Origin: Sporosarcina koreensis | Lineage (GTDB): Bacteria > Bacillota > Bacilli > Bacillales_A > Planococcaceae | Direction: 5' to 3' | Length of the DNA: 64,000 nucleotides | Assembly: GCF_001531445.1 (NCBI RefSeq) | Contig: NZ_LQYA01000007.1 | Coordinates: 32,730 to 96,729, forward strand | Shown: piece by piece, positions 29,195 to 40,126 of the stretch | How the letters are laid out: the number at the start of each line of letters is the position of its first letter | Position numbering within the stretch: position 1 is the first letter of the stretch | Made by a program: the position numbers and the translations under genes | The notes under the pieces: generated by a model | Seen by the model: only the letters and a program-made list of their open reading frames with translations | Told to the model about the DNA's origin: nothing | Databases searched by the model: none

Positions 29195-29638
29195 TCATCT
29201 GCCGTTCAGTATGGTAATTTTTTTTGTTTCATCTTCTGTTTCTAGCGGTAATTCCGTAATTGTCCAGTTTTGTGAGAGGAACTGCTTCAGCGTTTCTAAC
29301 TCACTCTCACTCACTTTCAACTGTTTCATGCCCTCATCTGTCAACGAGTAATCTTTCCCGGCGGTTTTTTTGAATTTCAATTCCAAAAGCCCTTGAAGCC
29401 CTCTTATGGTAATGAACTTCACTTGATATCCTTCCGTTAGAATGGATGTAAATGCATTTTTATCTTGCTGATAAAGTGAAATCAAATCACCATAACTATA
29501 ATTCGGATTGATGCGTACCCAAGAGCTGCTGTCCCCTTGCTCGAGCTGAGTTAGCAGCTCCTCATTTGATATGCCATTGCTGCGTAGTGTTTCAATCATA
29601 TACGCTTCCATTAATGTAACTTTATTAGTAGTCCCCAT
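29195..29638 (-). CDS. Small protein of unknown function in the fused-ATPase operon
   Basis: Start ATG 29638, six bases after GGGAGGA, gives 147 residues (MGTTNKVTLMEAYMIETL...). It begins with a helical stretch rich in acidic residues and includes a segment (SLTDEGMKQLKVSESELETLKQFLSQNW) that resembles a winged-helix tail; the middle ITIRGLQGLLELKFKKTAG is beta-like. No signal peptide or membrane segment. I do not recognise the family. It follows the double-ATPase gene by a short gap and is terminated by the strong hairpin, so it is part of that transcription unit and may be a regulator or accessory factor of the transporter. Confidence 0.7.
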   Translation of the reverse strand: MGTTNKVTLMEAYMIETLRSNGISNEELLTQLEQGDSSSWVRINPNYSYGDLISLYQQDKNAFTSILTEGYQVKFITIRGLQGLLELKFKKTAGKDYSLTDEGMKQLKVSESELETLKQFLSQNWTITELPLETEDETKKITILNGR

Positions 29639-29670
29639 CCCGCATCCTCCCAAGTCTATGTAATTGCTTA

Positions 29671-31407
29671 TTAGTTGACGGGCATTGCTACCCAATGTCC
29701 TTTTGAAATCTCCACAAACTCCGATTGTTGTAATCGGTATTTATCTGTTTCATGTTGCTCATCCATCATGACTCGCTTTTTCTTTGCCTCAACCTTTGGA
29801 TCAGGAATCGGGATTGCAGCTAACAGCGACTTAGTATATGGGTGCTGTGGATTTGAATAAAGCTCTTCGCTTTCCGCCAGTTCAACTATTTTGCCGGCAT
29901 ACATAACCGCCACTCGGTCACTAATATGCTTTACCATGGACAAATCATGGGCGATAAACAAATAAGTCAAGCCCAATCGGTGTTGAAGATCTTCTAACAA
30001 GTCTACAACTTGCGACTGGATGGAAACGTCAAGCGCAGATAAAGGCTCATCACACACAATGAACTTAGGTTCCACTGCGAGTGCGCGTGCAATACCTATC
30101 CGTTGCCGCTGACCACCCGAGAATTCGTGAGGATATCGCATTGCATGCGATGGCAAGAGTCCTACCATATCTAAAAGCTCTTCAACTCTTTTCCTACGTT
30201 GTGCTTTACTGCCGCTCAGCCCGTGTATATCGAGGGCCTGACCGATAATATCCAACACTTTAAACCGCGGATTCAGTGATGAATAAGGATCTTGGAAAAT
30301 GAGTTGCATATGGCGTCTCATTGTTTTCATTTCACTTTTAGACAAACGATTGATCGCCATCCCTTGGTAGAGTACATCGCCATCCGTCGGTTCATTCAAT
30401 CGTAAGATCGCTCTACCTGTCGTTGACTTTCCAGACCCTGACTCTCCCACAAGGCCAAGTGTCTCGCCAGGTTGAATATGGAAACTAATATTGTCAACGG
30501 CCTTCAACAACTTTCCCTTTCCTAAATCAAAATGTTGTTTAAGTGACTTTACTTCAATAAGAGGCGTATTGCTGGTATCTGTCATGATCAATGGCGTGCG
30601 TTTAGGCTTCTTCTTCTCATGTAATTTTGGAAGTGAATTTAGTAGTTTCAGTGTATACGGGTGCTTCGGACTCTCGAAAATCTCCTCAGTTGTTCCAGTC
30701 TCAACAATTTCTCCGCTCTTCATGACAACAACACGGTCGCACATTCCAGCGACTACACCCAAATCATGGGTGATCAGAATAATGGATGTGCCGAAACGCT
30801 TTTGCATATCCTTCATCAAATTTAAAATTTGTGCTTGTATTGTTACGTCCAATGCTGTTGTAGGTTCATCCGCGATTAACAAAGTCGGACGGCAAGCAAG
30901 TGCAATTGCAATCATGACGCGTTGCAGCATGCCACCTGAAAACTCATGAGGGAATTGATTATATCGAGTCTCCACATCCCGGATTCCCACAAGTTTCAAG
31001 ATTTCGAGCACTTGCACTTTAGCTTCTTTCTTTGACAGTTTCTGATGTTTAATTAAACTTTCAGCAATTTGTTTTCCTATTCTTATTGTTGGGTTCAGTG
31101 AGGTCATCGGGTCTTGGAAGATCATACTTATATCGCGGCCGCGTATGCTTTCCATTTCCTTCTCTGTTTTAGCACCCAAATTTTCACCAAGAAAATTAAT
31201 GTCCCCGTTTTTCATATGTGAAGGCGGTGAGGGTAATATCCGCATTATACTTCGAGCCGTGACACTTTTACCGCTTCCCGACTCTCCTACGATTCCTAAT
31301 GTTTCACCCTTTTTAACTTCAAAACTAACGCCTCGAACTGCGTCGAATTCCTCATCTCTGGTCTGAAAAGAGACGTGCAGATCCTTCACTGTTAATATTA
31401 TTTCCAA
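29671..31407 (-). CDS. Fused double ABC ATPase of the peptide-transporter type (DppD-DppF in one chain)
   Basis: Start is probably TTG 31407 behind GGTGGA, giving about 578 residues; the longer frame starts at 31467. Two complete ATPase domains are in tandem. First: GESGSGKSVTARSIMRI, FSGGMLQRVMIAIAL, LLIADEPTTALD. Second, after a linker near residue 275: GESGSGKSTTGRAILRL, FSGGQRQRIGIARAL, IVCDEPLSALD. Fused GsiA-like ATPases are known in other bacteria; here the two domains serve the divergent permeases and binding protein. It is transcribed divergently from them, sharing a short promoter region at 31408-31523. Confidence 0.92.
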   Translation of the reverse strand: MEIILTVKDLHVSFQTRDEEFDAVRGVSFEVKKGETLGIVGESGSGKSVTARSIMRILPSPPSHMKNGDINFLGENLGAKTEKEMESIRGRDISMIFQDPMTSLNPTIRIGKQIAESLIKHQKLSKKEAKVQVLEILKLVGIRDVETRYNQFPHEFSGGMLQRVMIAIALACRPTLLIADEPTTALDVTIQAQILNLMKDMQKRFGTSIILITHDLGVVAGMCDRVVVMKSGEIVETGTTEEIFESPKHPYTLKLLNSLPKLHEKKKPKRTPLIMTDTSNTPLIEVKSLKQHFDLGKGKLLKAVDNISFHIQPGETLGLVGESGSGKSTTGRAILRLNEPTDGDVLYQGMAINRLSKSEMKTMRRHMQLIFQDPYSSLNPRFKVLDIIGQALDIHGLSGSKAQRRKRVEELLDMVGLLPSHAMRYPHEFSGGQRQRIGIARALAVEPKFIVCDEPLSALDVSIQSQVVDLLEDLQHRLGLTYLFIAHDLSMVKHISDRVAVMYAGKIVELAESEELYSNPQHPYTKSLLAAIPIPDPKVEAKKKRVMMDEQHETDKYRLQQSEFVEISKGHWVAMPVN

Positions 31408-31523
31408 TTCGATTCCACCGCCATTTATTTTAATCTTAATAGTGTTTTTAAAAATATAACTTGTCACTAACTTCAGATTATACTATTATGTGTATTATTA
31501 ATCAATGAGAAAGAGGGAGAGAC
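31408..31523. promoter_or_regulatory. Divergent promoter region between fused ATPase and permease genes
   Basis: Only about 116 bases separate the two starts. The sequence is AT-rich with TATACTATTATG near 31477-31490, but I could not define boxes with certainty. Confidence 0.45.
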
Positions 31524-32969
31524 ATGGAGGTAAAAGCATCTACCAGAGATGGTAATCGGTTGTTATGCATAATGCAGAATTCTTACGACAAGATGCATCA
31601 AAGAAATTCCTATAATTGTATAATAATGATTTTAGGACTTCCGGTTCACTTATTCCTGTTTATGTTTTATGTATGGAGAAAGAGGGACAATACATACTCT
31701 TCTTTACTTGAGGATAGTAAAAGGTCTCTTGCGGATGAAGGTTTTAAAGAGAAATTACGGCTTGAATTTAGGAACCAGTTGATTCGAAAATGTGAATTTT
31801 TTGGACAGCATGTCAACGAATCAGAACTGGAAAAACAGGTGGAAAATTTAGCGGAAGAACGATTTCTAAAAATAGCACGGGAGAAGACGGATAAAAGGTT
31901 GCTAAAAGAAGGGAAAACGAAATCGAGTTACTCGAATTTCTTCCGTTCGTTACTTTCACAACCGCTTTTCTTTTTCTTGACATTACTTCCAGGCTTGCTG
32001 ATGTATCTATTTATCTTCATGTATAGTAATCCATTTGTTAAGTATGTATTCGAACGACTGGTAATCAGTGTTTTCGTCGTCATTGGTGTTGTAATCCTTG
32101 TGTTTTCTATTTTGTATATATCACCATTTGAACCTGCCGCCAATATAATTGGTGAAACGGCGACGCCAGAACAAATTTCAGCTTTCAACCGATTACATGG
32201 CCTTGATTTACCTTACCTTGCGCAATTATGGGAGGCGATCAAAGGGATTGTCACGTTTGATTTGGGTGCATCCTACGCAGGCAATGAAGATGTCATTACG
32301 AGCATTGCGAAAAAGTTCCCGATTACGTTGATCATCTCATTGTTATCGTTAGTCATGGCTGTACTGATCGCAGTACCTATCGGAATTATTTCGTCCACAA
32401 AACCAAATTCTTTTTTTGATTATACATTTATGTTTATTGCCTTACTCGGTTTGTCGATCCCCAACTTTTGGCAAGGGTTAATATTCATTTTGAACTTTTC
32501 GATTAAATTACAGTGGTTGCCTGCTACTTACAATCCACAAAATTGGTTATCCGTGATCATGCCGATTATAGTCCTCGGAACAGCATTAACAGCATCCGTC
32601 AGTAGAATGACTCGCTCATCCATGCTGGAGATTATTAATGAAGACTATATCATCACGGCAAAAGCGAAAGGTTTAAATAAACGGCAAGTGCTGTGGAAGC
32701 ATGCCGTTGGTAATGCAATGATTCCTGTCATTACTGTCATCGGCCTGCTATTCGGTGGGATGCTCGGTGGTGCTGCTGTAACAGAGAAGGTTTTCAATAT
32801 TAGTGGTATCGGCAGCTATATTGTAGATAAGCAGTTTATTCCTGATATTCCAAGTATTTTGGGCGGGGTTGTCTACGTGGCTATCACCATTTCACTAATC
32901 AATGTAATTATTGACATTTTGTATGCATACCTTGATCCGAGAATTCGTTCGAAGATTAAACAATACTAA
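31524..32969 (+). CDS. DppB-type ABC permease with long N-terminal extension
   Basis: A 481-residue permease, about 170 residues longer than the 305-residue copy at 10660. The extra N-terminal part has one hydrophobic helix (IIMILGLPVHLFLFMFYVW, about 33-52), then a charged helical stretch of about 90 residues (SLADEGFKEKLRLEFRNQLIRK ... NLAEERFLKIAREK) and a second hydrophobic helix (LFFFLTLLPGLLMYLFIFMY), before the normal DppB start NPFVKYVFERLVISVFVVIG. The core has TPEQISAFNRLHGLDLPYLAQ and the EAA loop DYIITAKAKGLNKRQVLWKHAVGN. Start ATG 31524 follows AGAGGGAGAGAC. Confidence 0.88.
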   Translation: MEVKASTRDGNRLLCIMQNSYDKMHQRNSYNCIIMILGLPVHLFLFMFYVWRKRDNTYSSLLEDSKRSLADEGFKEKLRLEFRNQLIRKCEFFGQHVNESELEKQVENLAEERFLKIAREKTDKRLLKEGKTKSSYSNFFRSLLSQPLFFFLTLLPGLLMYLFIFMYSNPFVKYVFERLVISVFVVIGVVILVFSILYISPFEPAANIIGETATPEQISAFNRLHGLDLPYLAQLWEAIKGIVTFDLGASYAGNEDVITSIAKKFPITLIISLLSLVMAVLIAVPIGIISSTKPNSFFDYTFMFIALLGLSIPNFWQGLIFILNFSIKLQWLPATYNPQNWLSVIMPIIVLGTALTASVSRMTRSSMLEIINEDYIITAKAKGLNKRQVLWKHAVGNAMIPVITVIGLLFGGMLGGAAVTEKVFNISGIGSYIVDKQFIPDIPSILGGVVYVAITISLINVIIDILYAYLDPRIRSKIKQY

Positions 32970-32979
32970 AGTAGGTGCA

Positions 32980-34524
32980 ATGATGACACAAATAGAAATG
33001 GAGAATAAGCAGGCTTTAAAGCCGAAGTCACAAATGAAGTCTGATCATAAGAAAATATTGAAGCTGTCGCCTGAATATACACAATCCAGTTTTGCTTGGA
33101 TAACGTCTCTAGCACTTACGATTGTTTTTTTGCTCAACTGCTTCGATTTTTCAACAAAGACCATTAAGCCATTCGCATTTAGTGCATTTCTGGCATACAG
33201 CCTTTTCACTTTGATTCAGATCGGGCTTACAGTAGCCATACGAAAAGATATTCTAACGAGCGGAACCATAAGAAAAACGACTAGAAAACTAGGTTTCATA
33301 CAACTATTAGGCGTCTTCACAGGGAATGTCTTTGTTGTTTCGTTTGCATTCAATGTAATTAAAGAGAAAAAGACTCCGGAGTATATGTTTGCGGTCTATA
33401 TGGTGATGACCCAATTTTTTATTATTGCAATATCCTCTTTGAATTTGTTTAAACCGTATGTTTCGAATACATTTTTACTAGCCATGACCCTATTAGTAGC
33501 TATTTTAGTGTTCCAGCTAGCGGCAACGTTATTAGTCGCCAAGCACGTAACGAATCAAAGCACTAAGCGTTGGATGACATGGATTGCGATTCCGCTCATT
33601 CTAACAGCGGCAACCGGAAACCTGTTTGCGCTCATACTAGGATACGGCTTGCTAATGAAGGGAAGAAGTAATGATTTATCGAGGATCGATAAATGGGATA
33701 CGATGTGGGGGAAAATAACAAGAAATACTACGGCGACATTAGGGTTGTTCTTTATCATATTTATGTTCTCCATATCAGTTTGCAGCAACTTCACTTTCGA
33801 TTACAGTATGGCGGTCGAAAACAACTATAGTGCGCTTCTTCAACCGCCAAGCATCAGCTATCCGCTTGGAACAGATGATTTCGGAAGGGATTTATTCACC
33901 AGAATTATTTTTGGAGCAAGAATATCCTTAGTCGTCGGTTTCATTTCGACGATCATTCCAGCAGTTGTTGGTGGAGCACTTGGTGCAATTGCAGGTTATT
34001 ATGGCCATCGCACAGATAATATCGTCATGCGTTTACTCGATGTGCTATATGCGGTACCAGGAATATTGTTAGCGATTGCCATCATCGCTGCTTTTGGAGC
34101 GAATATTACGAACTTGATCATCGCATTAAGTGTTGGTTCCATTCCAACCTACGCCAGAACGATGAGGGCGAACGTCCTTATGGTTTCAAATTACCAGTTT
34201 GTTGAATCTGCCCGTGCGCTCGGTTCAAGCGACCTTTCAATTATCTTCAGGCAGGTTATACCGAATTCCCTAGCCCCGATGATCGTAAAGGCTACGTTAA
34301 CAATTGGCGGCGCGGTCATAGCCACAAGCAGTTTAAGCTATCTTGGACTTGGTGTAGAACCCCATATTCCAGAATGGGGGAATATATTGAAGTTAGGAAG
34401 TACGTATCTTGAAACGCATTCTTATTTAGCGATTTATCCCGGGCTTGCCATTATAGCACTCGTGTTGTCCTTCAACTTCTTAGGTGACGGGCTTCGTGAT
34501 GCAATGGATCCAAAGCTGGATTAA
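32980..34524 (+). CDS. DppC-type ABC permease with extra N-terminal membrane domain
   Basis: Start ATG 32980 or 32983. About 514 residues, compared with about 300 for normal DppC. Residues 1-40 are soluble; about 45-240 contain six additional hydrophobic helices (for example SLALTIVFLLNC, FSAFLAYSLFTLIQIGLTVAI, FIQLLGVFTGNVFVVSFAF, WIAIPLILTAATGNLFALILG). The DppC core follows: LGTDDFGRDLFTRIIFGARISLV, the EAA loop YQFVESARALGSSDLSIIFRQVIPN and SLSYLGLGVEPHIPEWG. It starts 10 bases after its partner permease's stop. The role of the six helices is unknown. Confidence 0.88.
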   Translation: MMTQIEMENKQALKPKSQMKSDHKKILKLSPEYTQSSFAWITSLALTIVFLLNCFDFSTKTIKPFAFSAFLAYSLFTLIQIGLTVAIRKDILTSGTIRKTTRKLGFIQLLGVFTGNVFVVSFAFNVIKEKKTPEYMFAVYMVMTQFFIIAISSLNLFKPYVSNTFLLAMTLLVAILVFQLAATLLVAKHVTNQSTKRWMTWIAIPLILTAATGNLFALILGYGLLMKGRSNDLSRIDKWDTMWGKITRNTTATLGLFFIIFMFSISVCSNFTFDYSMAVENNYSALLQPPSISYPLGTDDFGRDLFTRIIFGARISLVVGFISTIIPAVVGGALGAIAGYYGHRTDNIVMRLLDVLYAVPGILLAIAIIAAFGANITNLIIALSVGSIPTYARTMRANVLMVSNYQFVESARALGSSDLSIIFRQVIPNSLAPMIVKATLTIGGAVIATSSLSYLGLGVEPHIPEWGNILKLGSTYLETHSYLAIYPGLAIIALVLSFNFLGDGLRDAMDPKLD

Positions 34525-34549: not shown

Positions 34550-36367
34550 ATGTTGAAAAGGTTTTTGGTGCCGATTGTATTAGTAGTTGTTCTTGTTATG
34601 TCGGGATGTGTCAAAACAAAATCAGATGTTGAAGAAGGTGCGAAGCCCGGGAACGACGGGAAAAAAGATCTATCCAAAGTGCAAGTGGAACTTCTTGGGA
34701 TGAGTAGTGGAGAGTCCGATTTAAACATTGTCCGTGACCAACTAGTGAAAAACGGATTTGATGTGAAACTTAATTTGCAACCGGATTATGGTAGTTTCAA
34801 AGCACAACAAGATGCTGGCAACTATGATATCGCATTGTCGGGATGGACGACTGTTACAGGGAACCCTGATTATGCAGTTCGTTCACTCTTTAAAACAGGC
34901 GGAGATTACAGCATCATGTCCGATTCCGAAATCGACAGTCTTATTGACCAAGCAGGTACTGAGACGCCTGATGAATACCAAGCTACTTATAAGAAATTTG
35001 AGGAACGTCTAGTATTTGACAAAGCATATATTGTTCCGCTTTATACTTCGTATAAAACACAAGCAGTGAACAAGGATATCTTGAATTTAGATTCAGTTCG
35101 ACTCTCTAAATCGCGTTCCCTTCCATGGGAAGAAATCGAATTCAATGATGCATCCAAAAATGCAACGGATCCTTTGGTTTTGTCACAATCGATGTCTACA
35201 TTAACGTCACTTGATCCCATTAAAGGGAATGACGGATCGATTAATATCATTAATACAAATATGCATGTACGTTTAGTGAATCTGACAGATGATGATCAAA
35301 TCACCTCTGAAGGCTCCCTATCGCTTAACCATAGTATCGCAGAAGGTAATTCAGAGTATTACTTCTTGCTGAGGGATGATATCAATTTTGCCAAAGTAGA
35401 CAGTAAAAAAGCTGTCGACTCTGGCGAACGGGTAGGGGCAGATGACGTTATCTTTACGTTAAATCGCGCTAAAGACAAAGACTCTGTACCTGATCACCGC
35501 ACATACACTCTTCATGAACATATTAAAGATATTGAAGTCATTACAGATTTAGGTTCACTTGAAACGATCAAGCAATCCGGAAGTGACGAAACGGTTAAAG
35601 CGGCACTGGAAAAAGGGCTTGGCAATACAATCAATTCTCTCGTGGATGATAAAACGAAAGCAAATAGTGAAGAAGGAATGTACCAAGTCGTAAAAATAAC
35701 AACAACAGAGCCGTTCCCACAAGTGTTAAATTATTTGGCGCACCAATCTGCGGGTATCGTTTCAAAGAAGCAAGTGGAAAGCATCAATACATTCGATGTC
35801 GCATCATTTGATGTCAATAAAGACATTCCTTATGGCGATCAAAATACTGTAACAGAAGGCAGCCAGTACAATAATACGTTATACACGAGCGGCCCTTACA
35901 TTTTGATTTCTAAAAATGACTACGAAGCGGAGTTCCAAAAGAACCCGGGGTATATGACAGGAACGAAACACGAGCCGAAGATTTCAAATGTGACAATGCG
36001 TTTTATAAAAGACCCGGACAGCACACTTGCAGCACTTAGAAATAATGAAATCCATTTATTTTACGCTGTACCCGAAACTAAATACGATGTGGTAGAAAGC
36101 GATAGTAAACTGTCATTACAAAGCATTGAGAGTAATGCAGTCAGCTATTTGCTCTTCAATACGAAGAACCGAGAAGTCTCAGAAAGTGAAGATCTCCGAA
36201 AAGCAATTCTATACACAATTAATCAAGACGACTTCATCAGCTTTTACAAAGGAAATAAAACCAAAGCGTTCTCAACTTTAAGCCCAATCGTCAAAACAGG
36301 TAATGAACTTGTGGCTGATCCAGCAAAAGCAAAAGAATTTTTGAACAAGTATCAGGAAACTAAATAA
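34550..36367 (+). CDS. SBP_5-type substrate-binding lipoprotein with apparently circularly permuted domain order
   Basis: Start ATG 34550 behind AGGAGGG; 605 residues. The signal peptide ends with lipobox MSGC (cysteine near residue 20). Residues about 44-195 look like the C-terminal lobe of SBP_5 proteins (QDAGNYDIALSGWTTVTGNPD, SEIDSLIDQAGTETPDEYQATYKKFEE, AYIVPLYTSYKTQAVN). The canonical N-terminal parts come after: LVLSQSMSTLTSLDPI near 206, DVIFTLNRAKDKDSV near 305, SGPYILISKND near 445, and LRKAILYTINQDDFISF near 549. In the copy at 9037 the last motif is at residue 298 of 517, with the C-terminal lobe following. So the C-terminal part has moved to the front. Ligand unknown. Confidence 0.82.
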   Translation: MLKRFLVPIVLVVVLVMSGCVKTKSDVEEGAKPGNDGKKDLSKVQVELLGMSSGESDLNIVRDQLVKNGFDVKLNLQPDYGSFKAQQDAGNYDIALSGWTTVTGNPDYAVRSLFKTGGDYSIMSDSEIDSLIDQAGTETPDEYQATYKKFEERLVFDKAYIVPLYTSYKTQAVNKDILNLDSVRLSKSRSLPWEEIEFNDASKNATDPLVLSQSMSTLTSLDPIKGNDGSINIINTNMHVRLVNLTDDDQITSEGSLSLNHSIAEGNSEYYFLLRDDINFAKVDSKKAVDSGERVGADDVIFTLNRAKDKDSVPDHRTYTLHEHIKDIEVITDLGSLETIKQSGSDETVKAALEKGLGNTINSLVDDKTKANSEEGMYQVVKITTTEPFPQVLNYLAHQSAGIVSKKQVESINTFDVASFDVNKDIPYGDQNTVTEGSQYNNTLYTSGPYILISKNDYEAEFQKNPGYMTGTKHEPKISNVTMRFIKDPDSTLAALRNNEIHLFYAVPETKYDVVESDSKLSLQSIESNAVSYLLFNTKNREVSESEDLRKAILYTINQDDFISFYKGNKTKAFSTLSPIVKTGNELVADPAKAKEFLNKYQETK

Positions 36368-36462: not shown

Positions 36463-38319
36463 TTATTGAAATAGTAAGCTGTCTGTAGTTGTTGGGATTA
36501 TGTCGGATAAGGATTCAGACTCCGGTATTGTAATGTTGATTAGATTGCTGATTGCAGCTGGATTGTCGTCACCCTTTCTTCTGAATTCGACAAATAGTTC
36601 ATACTCCGTATTCGCTTGCAGTGTCGTTAAGGTTGCGCTTGTGTTTTCGAAATCAATGTCTTCGGATGTTTGCCAAACTGGTTCGTAATTTGCAAAAACA
36701 CGGATATCATCATATTCTTCAGGGTTTTCCCATGATAAAATGACCGTTGTGCCTGATACTTCGACTGTGATGTTAACTAAAGGTAGTTTTTCGAGATTCT
36801 GGATAGCCATTAAGATGGCAGCTGTTTTCTCGATTTTCTCTGCATCTGTTTCTTCTGGCATCTCCATCGCTTCATAAAGTGCCTCCTGGCTATCCATTGT
36901 GTAGAAGTACCAGTAGTCTGGCGGTATGCTATCGAATGCGGCGGCTAGTTTTTCGTCAATGGTCTGGCTAGGTGGCTCCGGATTTGGCTCCGGTTCTGGT
37001 TCCGGATCTGGCTTTGGACCTGGCTCCGGGTCTGGTGTCGGAGTTGGTTCCGGCCTTGTGACTGGACTCGAATCAGGCTCAGGTGTTGGGACAGGGGTTG
37101 GTTTAGATTGCCCTTCCGCTCTTTTTGCTGCTTCGTCCTGTCGTTGTCTTTCCGCCTCTTGTTTCCGTAAAGCTTCAGTGAATGCGTTACGTTCACTCTC
37201 GCTGATTTGAGCACTAAATGCTTCCTCTGCACGACGCTTGGCTTCTTCTGCCGCTTTTCTCTGCTGTTCAATTTGTAGTTCTCGTTTCTCCTGCAATCTT
37301 TGCAGAAGCTGCTGTTCTCTATTTTGCTGTTCCTCTCTCTTTTTTTGCATTTCTTCCGCTTGCTGCTTGCGCAATTGTTCCAAGCGATTACGCATTTCTA
37401 TCTCAGCCGTGCTTAATTGCCATTCCTCAACAATTTCATTCAGCCTAAGCAATTCTTCGGGAATGGGGCTACCTGATTCCACCGCTTTACTTGCAATGAG
37501 CGAAAGCAAACCTTTCAACCTTTTTTCCATTTCACGCAACTCGTCGGCCGTAGCTGCTGAATCGGGAGAGGGTACATTGCTTTCCATATTTTGTTTCAAT
37601 TCTTCGACGAGTCGCTCATTTTCCCGATCGATCTTCTCTTTATTCTTAAGCAACTGTTCCATAATATGTGAGTTTCGGATGGCATCCGATCCGTTTAAAT
37701 TGGCCGGTTCTATATAGTCATCTAGATTTGGAATGCCAGGTTGCATATGAAGTTGTTGCGCTGGTAAGATCGGAACGGGCAAATTATTTGTTCCTTCATT
37801 ATTTGACGCATTCACAATGCCCGATGCGACAAAAATAGATGTGTTTGAGTTGGCAGGGTCAACTTGGACGAAAAAATTCGTCCCTTTCGCAGCAATATGC
37901 TGTCCAGGCGTATTGACTTCGAAAATATCCCCCGTTTTTCTGTCCGGATTGGCACTGGCCAGCACGAGGCCTGACCAAACAGTAAGTCTCGTGACCGCAT
38001 TTCCGGACTCTTTGCGCAGATCGGCCAGGACGAGTCTTGCATTCTCAGCGATGGTCAATTCGTCTTGCGTATCCTCTATCCGTAGGCTGATGCTGGCAAA
38101 AGCATCAGTCGCCACAAGGTCGCCTTCCTGCAATGTCATCTCTGGATAAGCCCGCACCGACAAATGTCCGCCTGCTTTTGTTATCCAAACGGTGCCCCTC
38201 ACATCGCCAATTGTTGCAGACCGATTAGTTGCAGCTTTGACAGGTTGTCCTACTCCCGACAGTAAAAGGATGACTGCTAATAAGCTAGCAAACCATTTTG
38301 TGAAACAGTTTGTTTTCAT
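36463..38319 (-). CDS. Secreted FecR-domain protein with coiled coil, Pro-rich linker and fibronectin-like end
   Basis: A 618-residue exported protein: signal peptide WFASLLAVILLLSG...KAA (residues 9-30), a FecR-type domain about 35-175 (GTVWITKAGGHLSVRAYPEM, EVNTPGQHIAAKGTNFFVQV), a long charged coiled coil about 215-400 (rich in EQLRKQQAEEMQKKREEQQ), a proline-rich linker with PEP and PTP repeats about 405-455, and a fibronectin-like end about 515-600 (EVSGTTVILSWENPEEYDDI). No membrane anchor follows. Gram-negative FecR senses iron citrate; Gram-positive FecR-domain proteins are surface or matrix proteins of unknown role. It starts at ATG 38319 inside the stop of the SLH gene, so it is translationally coupled. 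Confidence 0.85.
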   Translation of the reverse strand: MKTNCFTKWFASLLAVILLLSGVGQPVKAATNRSATIGDVRGTVWITKAGGHLSVRAYPEMTLQEGDLVATDAFASISLRIEDTQDELTIAENARLVLADLRKESGNAVTRLTVWSGLVLASANPDRKTGDIFEVNTPGQHIAAKGTNFFVQVDPANSNTSIFVASGIVNASNNEGTNNLPVPILPAQQLHMQPGIPNLDDYIEPANLNGSDAIRNSHIMEQLLKNKEKIDRENERLVEELKQNMESNVPSPDSAATADELREMEKRLKGLLSLIASKAVESGSPIPEELLRLNEIVEEWQLSTAEIEMRNRLEQLRKQQAEEMQKKREEQQNREQQLLQRLQEKRELQIEQQRKAAEEAKRRAEEAFSAQISESERNAFTEALRKQEAERQRQDEAAKRAEGQSKPTPVPTPEPDSSPVTRPEPTPTPDPEPGPKPDPEPEPEPNPEPPSQTIDEKLAAAFDSIPPDYWYFYTMDSQEALYEAMEMPEETDAEKIEKTAAILMAIQNLEKLPLVNITVEVSGTTVILSWENPEEYDDIRVFANYEPVWQTSEDIDFENTSATLTTLQANTEYELFVEFRRKGDDNPAAISNLINITIPESESLSDIIPTTTDSLLFQ

Positions 38320-40034
38320 TTTTCTGTCCCTCTTTCAAATGTAAGTTGATAGATGCGATTGTCTTCGTTATCCGCTATAAATACATTTCCGTTAGAATCT
38401 GTAGTTATACTGACTGGATTTTTAAACCCGTTTGAAATTGTCCTAACTTTTCCATCCTTGAAAGAACGGACCGATTTATTGACACTGTCTGCAATTAATA
38501 ACCCATGTGTTTCAGAATAGGATAATCCTTTCGGAAAGTTGAATGCTGCATTGTCAGCAGGTCCGTCCATAAGATTTCCAGTTGTATAAAGGAGCCCCGG
38601 TTTTGGTGCTGCATACTTTCCGGCGATTGTGGAAACTGTATTTTCTGCGAAGTCGATATACCGGATCAATTGATTGCCAGAGTCACTTACAAATAAGTTT
38701 CCTTTTGAGTCGATGGCCAGCCCTGATGGTTCGTTGAATTTTGCATCTTCCAGCAAACCATCCTGAAAGTCGCCCGCCCATTCAACAACACCTGGAGTTA
38801 TTTGCACGATCCGATCGGATGGGGTATTCAGTGTAGTTACATTGCCATCCACTGTGATTTTGCGGATGACGTGATTCAATGTGTCCGCAACGAATAGTGT
38901 TCCGTTTTTGTCTATTACGATTGATTGCGGGGAATGGAACCGTGCGTCTTCGCCTGTGCCATCTTCATTTCCAACTAAACCATTACCTGCAATCGTACTT
39001 ACTTGCCCGTCGATGCCAATTTTTCGGATTGCATGATTGAGCGTGTCTGCAATGAATACATTCCCTTCGGCGTCAACTGCAATTCCAGTAGGACTTTGAA
39101 AAAATGACCTTTCTTTGTCACCATCGTAAAGACCCCCAAGTGGCAAACCAGAATCATCGATTTCCAATGTCATGCCTGCAAAAGTAGTCACTTCCTCATT
39201 TTGGACTTTCCTAATTAAATGATTTTCGCTGTCTACAATTAACAATGAACCATCTTGTGAAATCGCCATTCCGGCAGGGGCACGGAACGAGGCGCTTATT
39301 GCCCTGCCATCTGCATACGCAAAATAGCTGTTACCCGCAAACAGGATTTTGTCTATCAATATTTCTTTATCTTGAATTGTCACGGCTGCACTTTTCGCGA
39401 GAAATGATGCAAGCTGTCCCTGTGTTATTACTTCTTTGGGTTGGAAGTAGGGCGCGGATGGGTCGATAATGTTGAAGTAGTCAAGGATATCAATGAAAGG
39501 GCGGGCCTCTGCCTTTGCTTGACCGTGATCAGCTACGGTACTCTTAAAATCTTGGTCGCGGATGTAGGAGGTGAAATCTATGTTGTGTATAGCATGGTAG
39601 GCTCGTCCTAAAACAATTGCCGTATTTTCTCGGGTCATCCTTTCTTGAGGATTCAAATTGCCATCTGGTGAACCTATAATGATTCCGTAATCTTTCAGCA
39701 TGGCGGCATATTGTAACAGCTCGTCATGGGACGAAAATGTCAGGTCTGAAAATCTTGGCTTTGATTTGTAGTCATGGGGTATTTGGAAATCGAGTGTTTC
39801 AAGCCATTTTCCCATTATCATGATTACATCTGCTCGTGTTAATGGTTGGTCCGGTCTGAAGGTACCATCGGAATAGTCTTTGATAATGCCTGTTTGTAAA
39901 AGTGCATGGATGGCCTCCTCTTGTGAATCATCAATCGTATCTGAAAACCCCGCTCCCTCTGCCGGAGCTGCTGCAACGTATGGCAAAAGTAAAGCCGAAG
40001 TTGCGAAAAACATGAAATTCTTTTTATTGCTCAA
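38316..40034 (-). CDS. Surface protein with SLH domains and NHL-type beta-propeller
   Basis: Start TTG 40034, eight bases after AAAGGAGG; about 572 residues. After a signal peptide (FMFFATSALLLPYVAAAPAEG), two to three S-layer-homology repeats occupy residues about 30-215 (TGIIKDYSDGTFRPDQPLTRADVIMIMGKW; YGIIIGSPDGNLNPQERMTRENTAIVLGRA; NIIDPSAPYFQPKEVITQGQLASFLAK). From about 235 to the end there are at least five NHL-like blades, such as FHSPQSIVIDKNGTLFVADTLNHVIRKI, giving a beta-propeller. SLH repeats bind pyruvylated cell-wall polymers, so the protein is displayed on the surface. Its stop overlaps the FecR gene start (ATGA), suggesting the two proteins work together. Confidence 0.9.
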   Translation of the reverse strand: MSNKKNFMFFATSALLLPYVAAAPAEGAGFSDTIDDSQEEAIHALLQTGIIKDYSDGTFRPDQPLTRADVIMIMGKWLETLDFQIPHDYKSKPRFSDLTFSSHDELLQYAAMLKDYGIIIGSPDGNLNPQERMTRENTAIVLGRAYHAIHNIDFTSYIRDQDFKSTVADHGQAKAEARPFIDILDYFNIIDPSAPYFQPKEVITQGQLASFLAKSAAVTIQDKEILIDKILFAGNSYFAYADGRAISASFRAPAGMAISQDGSLLIVDSENHLIRKVQNEEVTTFAGMTLEIDDSGLPLGGLYDGDKERSFFQSPTGIAVDAEGNVFIADTLNHAIRKIGIDGQVSTIAGNGLVGNEDGTGEDARFHSPQSIVIDKNGTLFVADTLNHVIRKITVDGNVTTLNTPSDRIVQITPGVVEWAGDFQDGLLEDAKFNEPSGLAIDSKGNLFVSDSGNQLIRYIDFAENTVSTIAGKYAAPKPGLLYTTGNLMDGPADNAAFNFPKGLSYSETHGLLIADSVNKSVRSFKDGKVRTISNGFKNPVSITTDSNGNVFIADNEDNRIYQLTFERGTEK

Positions 40035-40085
40035 TTTAGCTTCCTCCTTTTGTCGATAGACTCTAATTCTTGTGGTAGTAGGTTC

Positions 40086-40126
40086 AGAAAACCACACCTA
40101 CCCTTACTGTAAAGGGAGATGTGGTT
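40086..40126 (-). terminator. Terminator of LuxR/MalT-like paralogue 2
   Basis: AACCACA with TGTGGTT, and inside CCCTT with AAGGG, followed on the minus strand by TTTTC. It is about 56 bases after the regulator stop, before the SLH gene. Confidence 0.75.

Follow-up and report, generated by a model that had tools for sequence, protein, structure and literature searches.

The window (the whole 64,000-nucleotide stretch that was analysed) contains an open reading frame at positions 34550-36367 of the forward strand. It has 605 codons and a stop codon, and its ATG is preceded by AGGAGGG. Based on its sequence, phmmer, Pfam and profile comparisons, we suggest that it encodes a permuted GisD-type binding lipoprotein. 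The gene is the last of a set of four. A double ATPase (GisA-type, start codon uncertain) is encoded divergently at 29671-31467 on the reverse strand. Two permeases follow on the forward strand, one GisB-type with approximately 170 extra N-terminal residues (31524-32969) and one GisC-type with approximately 235 (32980-34524). These three genes were assigned by NCBIfam matches and comparison of loci, the permeases also with Pfam. The permease extensions (31524-32036 and 32980-33690) contain two and six hydrophobic segments, respectively, ahead of the conserved core and had no Pfam match at E <= 0.01. The set has the GisABCD layout, with a double ATPase gene pointing away from the genes for two long permeases and a lipoprotein binding protein.

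The gene after the binding protein begins at 36463 on the opposite strand, so the operon contains no ggt. The adjoining region (36463-40097, reverse strand) encodes a FecR-domain protein with fibronectin type III and an S-layer-homology protein with NHL repeats. Directly after the ATPase gene lies a frame for a small protein of unknown family (orf166; 29195-29695, reverse strand), which had no Pfam match. Relatives of this small protein are found beside the same operon in locus L102 (57% identity) and beside an operon remnant in locus L106 (63%).

The binding protein begins with a signal peptide and a lipobox, LVMSGC, ending in Cys20 (34550-34609, forward strand, as are all its segments), as seen in the sequence and in an alignment of relatives. 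The lipid anchor thus remains at the front, as had been predicted; Cys20 is invariant in 53 of 53 rows of the alignment. A linker (residues 21-42; 34610-34675) leads from the anchor to the first folded strand, and model confidence is low up to residue 40. Profile alignment and a PDB search match residues 43-181 (34676-35092) to the C-terminal third of normal SBP_5 proteins. In the profile and relatives' alignments, residues 182-202 (35093-35155) bridge the former C- and N-termini, with S188, R189 and W193 of this bridge invariant in the 53 rows. Residues 203-605 (35156-36364) match the first two thirds of such proteins, according to the profile alignment, the PDB search and a structural model in which a helix (591-604) closes the protein.

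Circular permutation of the binding protein

We found that the two parts of the 605-residue protein match normal SBP_5 proteins in swapped order. On a profile made from 15 SBP_5 proteins of normal order, residues 40-181 matched profile positions 367-511 (E = 4.8e-16) and residues 203-599 matched positions 41-356 (E = 3e-38), both far above chance. The cut lies between normal profile positions ~356 and ~367, and the old termini are joined by approximately 20 residues. The alignment places the cut inside the C-lobe. The Pfam family SBP_bac_5 (PF00496) matched with 137.1 bits (gathering score 32.4) in two stretches, the better of which aligned residues 262-600 with profile positions 11-275 of 368. 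Judged by these matches, the protein belongs to a permuted subgroup of SBP_bac_5 and departs from the normal order of that family.

Matches to single PDB chains gave the same picture. With phmmer, query residues 290-334, 420-570 and 43-168 corresponded to residues 86-131, 152-296 and 341-467 of 5isu. The alignments to 5f1q and 5u4o, the other two chains examined in this way, were likewise swapped, with several of the pieces weak alone. Used alone, residues 43-205 matched 14 distinct PDB sequences (E <= 0.01) at chain residues 361-541, in every case the C-terminal part of what is named a family 5 binding protein. The second half alone matched 39 distinct PDB sequences, 38 of them at chain residues 145-366 and one at 56-111. 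The matches of both halves were family 5 binding proteins as named, or carried no name.

Using hhalign, we aligned a profile built from 53 relatives to one built from the 15 normal proteins (two of them from the window). In natural order the score was 255.8, and normal residues 43-353 of 522 were covered. When the block from residue 43 was moved to the end, with cuts at 180-220, the score rose to 334-336 and the alignment covered normal residues 42-501, or nearly so. It was then single and collinear, spanning nearly the whole normal protein. Cuts elsewhere gave lower scores, down to 178. Three normal proteins, rotated as a control, scored best in natural order and lost on rotation. From the single collinear alignment and the PDB matches of the halves we infer that the halves should together make one complete fold, with no part doubled and nothing large missing.

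The swapped order was found throughout the family. Searched with the profile of normal proteins, each half giving E below 0.01, it was present in 104 of 104 permuted-family proteins and in 0 of the 15 normal proteins, each of which was left out of the profile in turn. The 104, some of which are near-duplicates, comprise the window protein, 79 from 80 named loci and 24 from 27 further loci, three of which had only fragments or none; L150, with a shorter frame, was excluded.

The original prediction had held that a block resembling the C-terminal lobe comes first and the N-terminal blocks follow; the profile swap, the scan of cuts and the family-wide counts bear this out, and the search that it had proposed for other proteins with the rearranged order succeeded in the same 104 proteins. 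The motifs on which it relied are where it had placed them: NYDIALSGW at 91, SEIDSLIDQA at 126, AYIVPLYTSY at 159 and LRKAI at 549. In the two other SBP_5 proteins of the window, the VRQAI motif lies at 297 of 517 and 295 of 522 residues, again as described. Taken together, these sequence comparisons indicate that the lipoprotein is almost certainly a cluster C (SBP_bac_5) binding protein in circularly permuted form.

AlphaFold2, given the 53-row alignment, returned a confident model with pLDDT 88.2 and pTM 0.84, poor at residues 1-40 and 229-231. All 50 rows listed by Foldseek were binding proteins of the SBP_5 fold. Their query TM-scores were low (0.29-0.46), as expected from an aligner that follows chain order and thus does not test permutation. 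GsiB (1uqw) was the first row, and GbpA with GSSG (3m8u) had the highest query TM-score among the rows listed (0.46; 0.54 by target).

Distribution and conservation

Relatives at E <= 1e-40 were present in 107 of 261 genomes of the family, representing 11 of 19 genera. In the class, 35 of 398 genomes matched at E <= 1e-13, including one with a fragment. In a sample of the phylum, 4 of 398 genomes had a match at E <= 1e-30: the window's own genome and three of the same class. A tblastn scan of named genomes gave 328 relatives. The best 80 of these, which we examined, include Staphylococcus, Oceanobacillus, Bacillus, Neobacillus, Cytobacillus, Lederbergia, Paenibacillus, Sporosarcina and Ureibacillus.

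All four genes were present in the same layout at 79 of these 80 named loci. One locus (L182) is truncated where its contig stops, and some genes in two others (L155 and L163) are broken into two frames. The same layout with one ATPase frame was found at 23 of the 27 further loci. Locus L086 (6895-13804) has a variant operon in which two separate ATPase genes share a strand with the permease genes and the gene for the permuted binding protein. The window's genome has a second complete set (L099; G000 contig C185, 1274-7917), whose binding protein is 67% identical to that of the window. The swapped order is real and conserved: with the protein in 107 of 261 family genomes and the four-gene set at 79 of 80 named loci, it is no artefact.

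The extension of the second permease follows the permuted protein closely. It was detected at E <= 1e-4 in 31 of 398 class genomes, all among the 35 with the permuted protein. The permuted protein occurs without an extension match in three Staphylococcus genomes (G291, G516 and G556), in which the extension has diverged, and in G583, which has only a 229-residue frame of the permuted protein. We sought a normal-order sister with the same long permeases by way of this extension and found none among the 398 class genomes. Across Bacilli, the swapped form is conserved, accompanied by a single kind of long permeases and by one double ATPase.

In a quick tree of 83 proteins, Staphylococcus forms a long branch. 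The window copy stands apart from seven other Sporosarcina proteins, among them the second copy of its own genome, which groups with Sporosarcina thermotolerans. This position suggests that the window copy was acquired from another lineage, the nearest fork having a support of only 87. Copies with 86% and 78% identity to the window protein are present in two genomes of the same genus that the tree does not include.

Viral contigs contained no relative, and just two plasmid records did, one of them labelled S. aureus; a mobile or viral origin was thus rejected. In the S. aureus "plasmid" record NZ_CP077929.1 (L222), the importer locus is partly repeated and inverted and the binding-protein frame is short; it looks like a faulty assembly. 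GisD-type fragments with no operon nearby lie at G249:C1:3091821-3092141, which has several stop codons, at G230:C10:1534536-1534757 and at L084:8144-8830. These isolated fragments are remains of lost copies.

Link to glutathione and alternative readings

We found a ggt-cluster gene beside all four Staphylococcus loci among the best 80 of the 328 relatives. The S. simiae locus was the one of the four scanned with the gamma-glutamyltransferase family TIGR00066. Its ggt frame scored 503.6 bits and starts no more than 20 bases from where the binding-protein gene ends. Other conserved neighbours of the 80 named loci had no common theme. The Staphylococcus loci, S. simiae included, have the swapped order too. 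A partial S. aureus record, which carries no gis label, has the same gene order, with 74-78% identity to S. simiae in the parts present, and its binding-protein frame of approximately 250 residues starts with the same swapped block.

Because ggt after the binding-protein gene in Staphylococcus reproduces the GisABCD-Ggt layout, we call the protein GisD-type, and the importer is very probably a GisABCD-type system. S. aureus GisABCD-Ggt was found, according to the text consulted, through mutants with weak growth on GSH or GSSG, including a mutant of the binding-protein gene, and a complete Gis system was reported in S. simiae (PMC10355420). In the portion consulted of a second paper, S. aureus requires Gis to grow at GSH concentrations of up to 250 uM, as examined with a gisD mutant (PMC12510641). 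Among the other subunits, the best NCBIfam family was GsiA for the ATPase (658.7; cut-off 1077) and GsiD for the second permease (272.6; cut-off 484), both of them glutathione families, and for the first permease it was Opp2B (nickel by name), with GsiC second, both under their cut-offs.

By analogy with these systems, glutathione or GSSG is a likely ligand of the window copy. The protein had originally been called a peptide-transporter binding lipoprotein; its part as the SBP_5 binding lipoprotein of an importer stands, and its substrate class is probably glutathione, of the Gis type. We are less sure of the ligand than of the importer type because the window protein is only approximately 40% identical to the Staphylococcus proteins and because of Val102. 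This residue stands opposite Asp436 of 5f1q in the phmmer alignment and is Val in 53 of 53 rows; the title of entry 8z1z refers to the position of Asp436. We take the Asp that meets the amino group to be Asp408 of mature DppA. In DppA and GbpA, the sections consulted describe an Asp that pairs with the amino group of the ligand (PMC3295651). An Asp of this type is absent from the permuted protein, which has Val102 instead.

These points also bear on a reading in which the topology is as described and members outside Staphylococcus, the window copy included, import another short peptide or thiol compound. The identity of only approximately 40% would allow this, no ggt-cluster member flanks the remaining 76 of the best 80 loci, and residues 103, 105 and 107, beside the invariant WTTV, are F, D and N in Staphylococcus and T, N and D elsewhere. 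However, the four genes, their layout and the long permeases are common to Staphylococcus and the other loci, and the genome of the window copy has two ggt-family genes away from the operon, one over and one under the cut-off. We regard a different ligand as possible, and less probable than glutathione.

Two further readings concern the chain itself. It might be a chimera, in which a C-lobe-like block from a different SBP_5 gene was placed before a truncated one, a reserve that the authors of the TpMglB-2 study raised for their own protein in the text consulted (PMC4990184). The top PDB relatives of the halves do differ (5u4o and MppA for the first half, GbpA and DppA for the second). However, 5u4o, SapA and GbpA occur in the lists of both halves, relative rank at such distance being uninformative, and the halves together should give one complete fold, with no part doubled or missing. 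We consider a chimera unlikely, and one made within the family would still yield the same permuted topology. It is extremely improbable, with nothing found in favor, that the front block is an unrelated extra domain or that the frame reflects a split gene or a faulty assembly. The first of these had been named at the outset as the case that would overturn the prediction; it is ruled out, since residues 43-205 match C-lobes only and the remainder has no second C-lobe, the natural-order comparison stopping at normal residue 353 of 522. A split gene or assembly error is ruled out by the independent genomes and the second full copy in the window's own genome. We therefore favor, with a probability of roughly 0.8, the complete reading: a permuted cluster C lipoprotein acting as the GisD-type subunit of a GisABCD-type ABC importer.

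Proposed mechanism and comparison with known systems

In the GisD-type reading, an ordinary two-lobed clamp would fold from the permuted chain. With the signal peptide and the lipidated cysteine now ahead of the C-lobe, this lobe would be tethered and the N-lobe free. The cleft would take glutathione or a related small peptide and the clamp would close on it; the loaded protein would then dock on the two permeases, and ATPase activity would empty it. Compared with normal relatives, the tethered and free lobes would be exchanged, and the crossings between the lobes would be the same. The original prediction had the anchor and hinge both placed differently. The change of anchor holds, as it now leads into the C-lobe, and the hinge in three dimensions is probably unchanged: with the cut inside the C-lobe, both crossings should be the usual strands, as in normal proteins. 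We placed the crossings with what we take to be the domain limits of OppA. The C-lobe provides 13 of 18 ligand contacts in GbpA, in the part of the report consulted (PMC3295651), so the tethered lobe would be the first to catch the ligand.

A functional role for the permutation is a tentative extension of this mechanism, and we think it doubtful. Gis importers might be a mechanistic class of their own, with a C-lobe-tethered binder and permeases with extra N-terminal membrane segments. In that case the permease extensions and the swapped anchor would have evolved jointly, and they would govern how the binder is held at the transporter or docks on it.

The finding means that the binding protein of an importer already studied by mutation has a rearranged chain, with relatives in many Bacilli. 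Family models read such a chain as two partial matches, which may have led to poor naming and to complete Gis systems being reported only near S. aureus. The protein is also a natural example on which to ask, as has otherwise been done with engineered proteins, if attaching a clamp protein to the membrane by one lobe or by the other makes a difference.

The closest known system is GisABCD-Ggt of S. aureus, in which a lipoprotein likewise stands next to a pair of long permeases and a divergent double ATPase; in the text consulted, GisD is called a predicted binding protein (PMC10355420). The window system differs in its approximately 40% identity to the Staphylococcus proteins of the loci compared and in its operon without ggt. 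The string "permut" occurs 0 times in the main text of the two Gis papers (PMC10355420, PMC12510641). As far as we searched, outside subscription journals and most preprints, a permuted Gis-type binding protein has gone unremarked, and TpMglB-2 was the sole other natural permuted ABC binding protein among the matches listed.

GsiB of E. coli and GbpA of Haemophilus share the SBP_5 fold; both are normal-order glutathione binders, and the amino-group Asp of GbpA is Val102 in the window protein. TpMglB-2 (Tp0684), as described in the sections consulted, is likewise a natural circular permutation in a lipid-anchored ABC binding protein, conserved in its family, Gram-positives included (PMC4990184). 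It is a Type I, cluster B sugar binder, whereas the window protein belongs to cluster C, with listed PDB and profile matches that are all SBP_5 and none of the Type I, cluster B fold. In TpMglB-2 it is strands of the N-lobe that are permuted, adding a fourth hinge crossing (PMC4990184), in contrast to the window protein, whose chain is cut inside the C-lobe.
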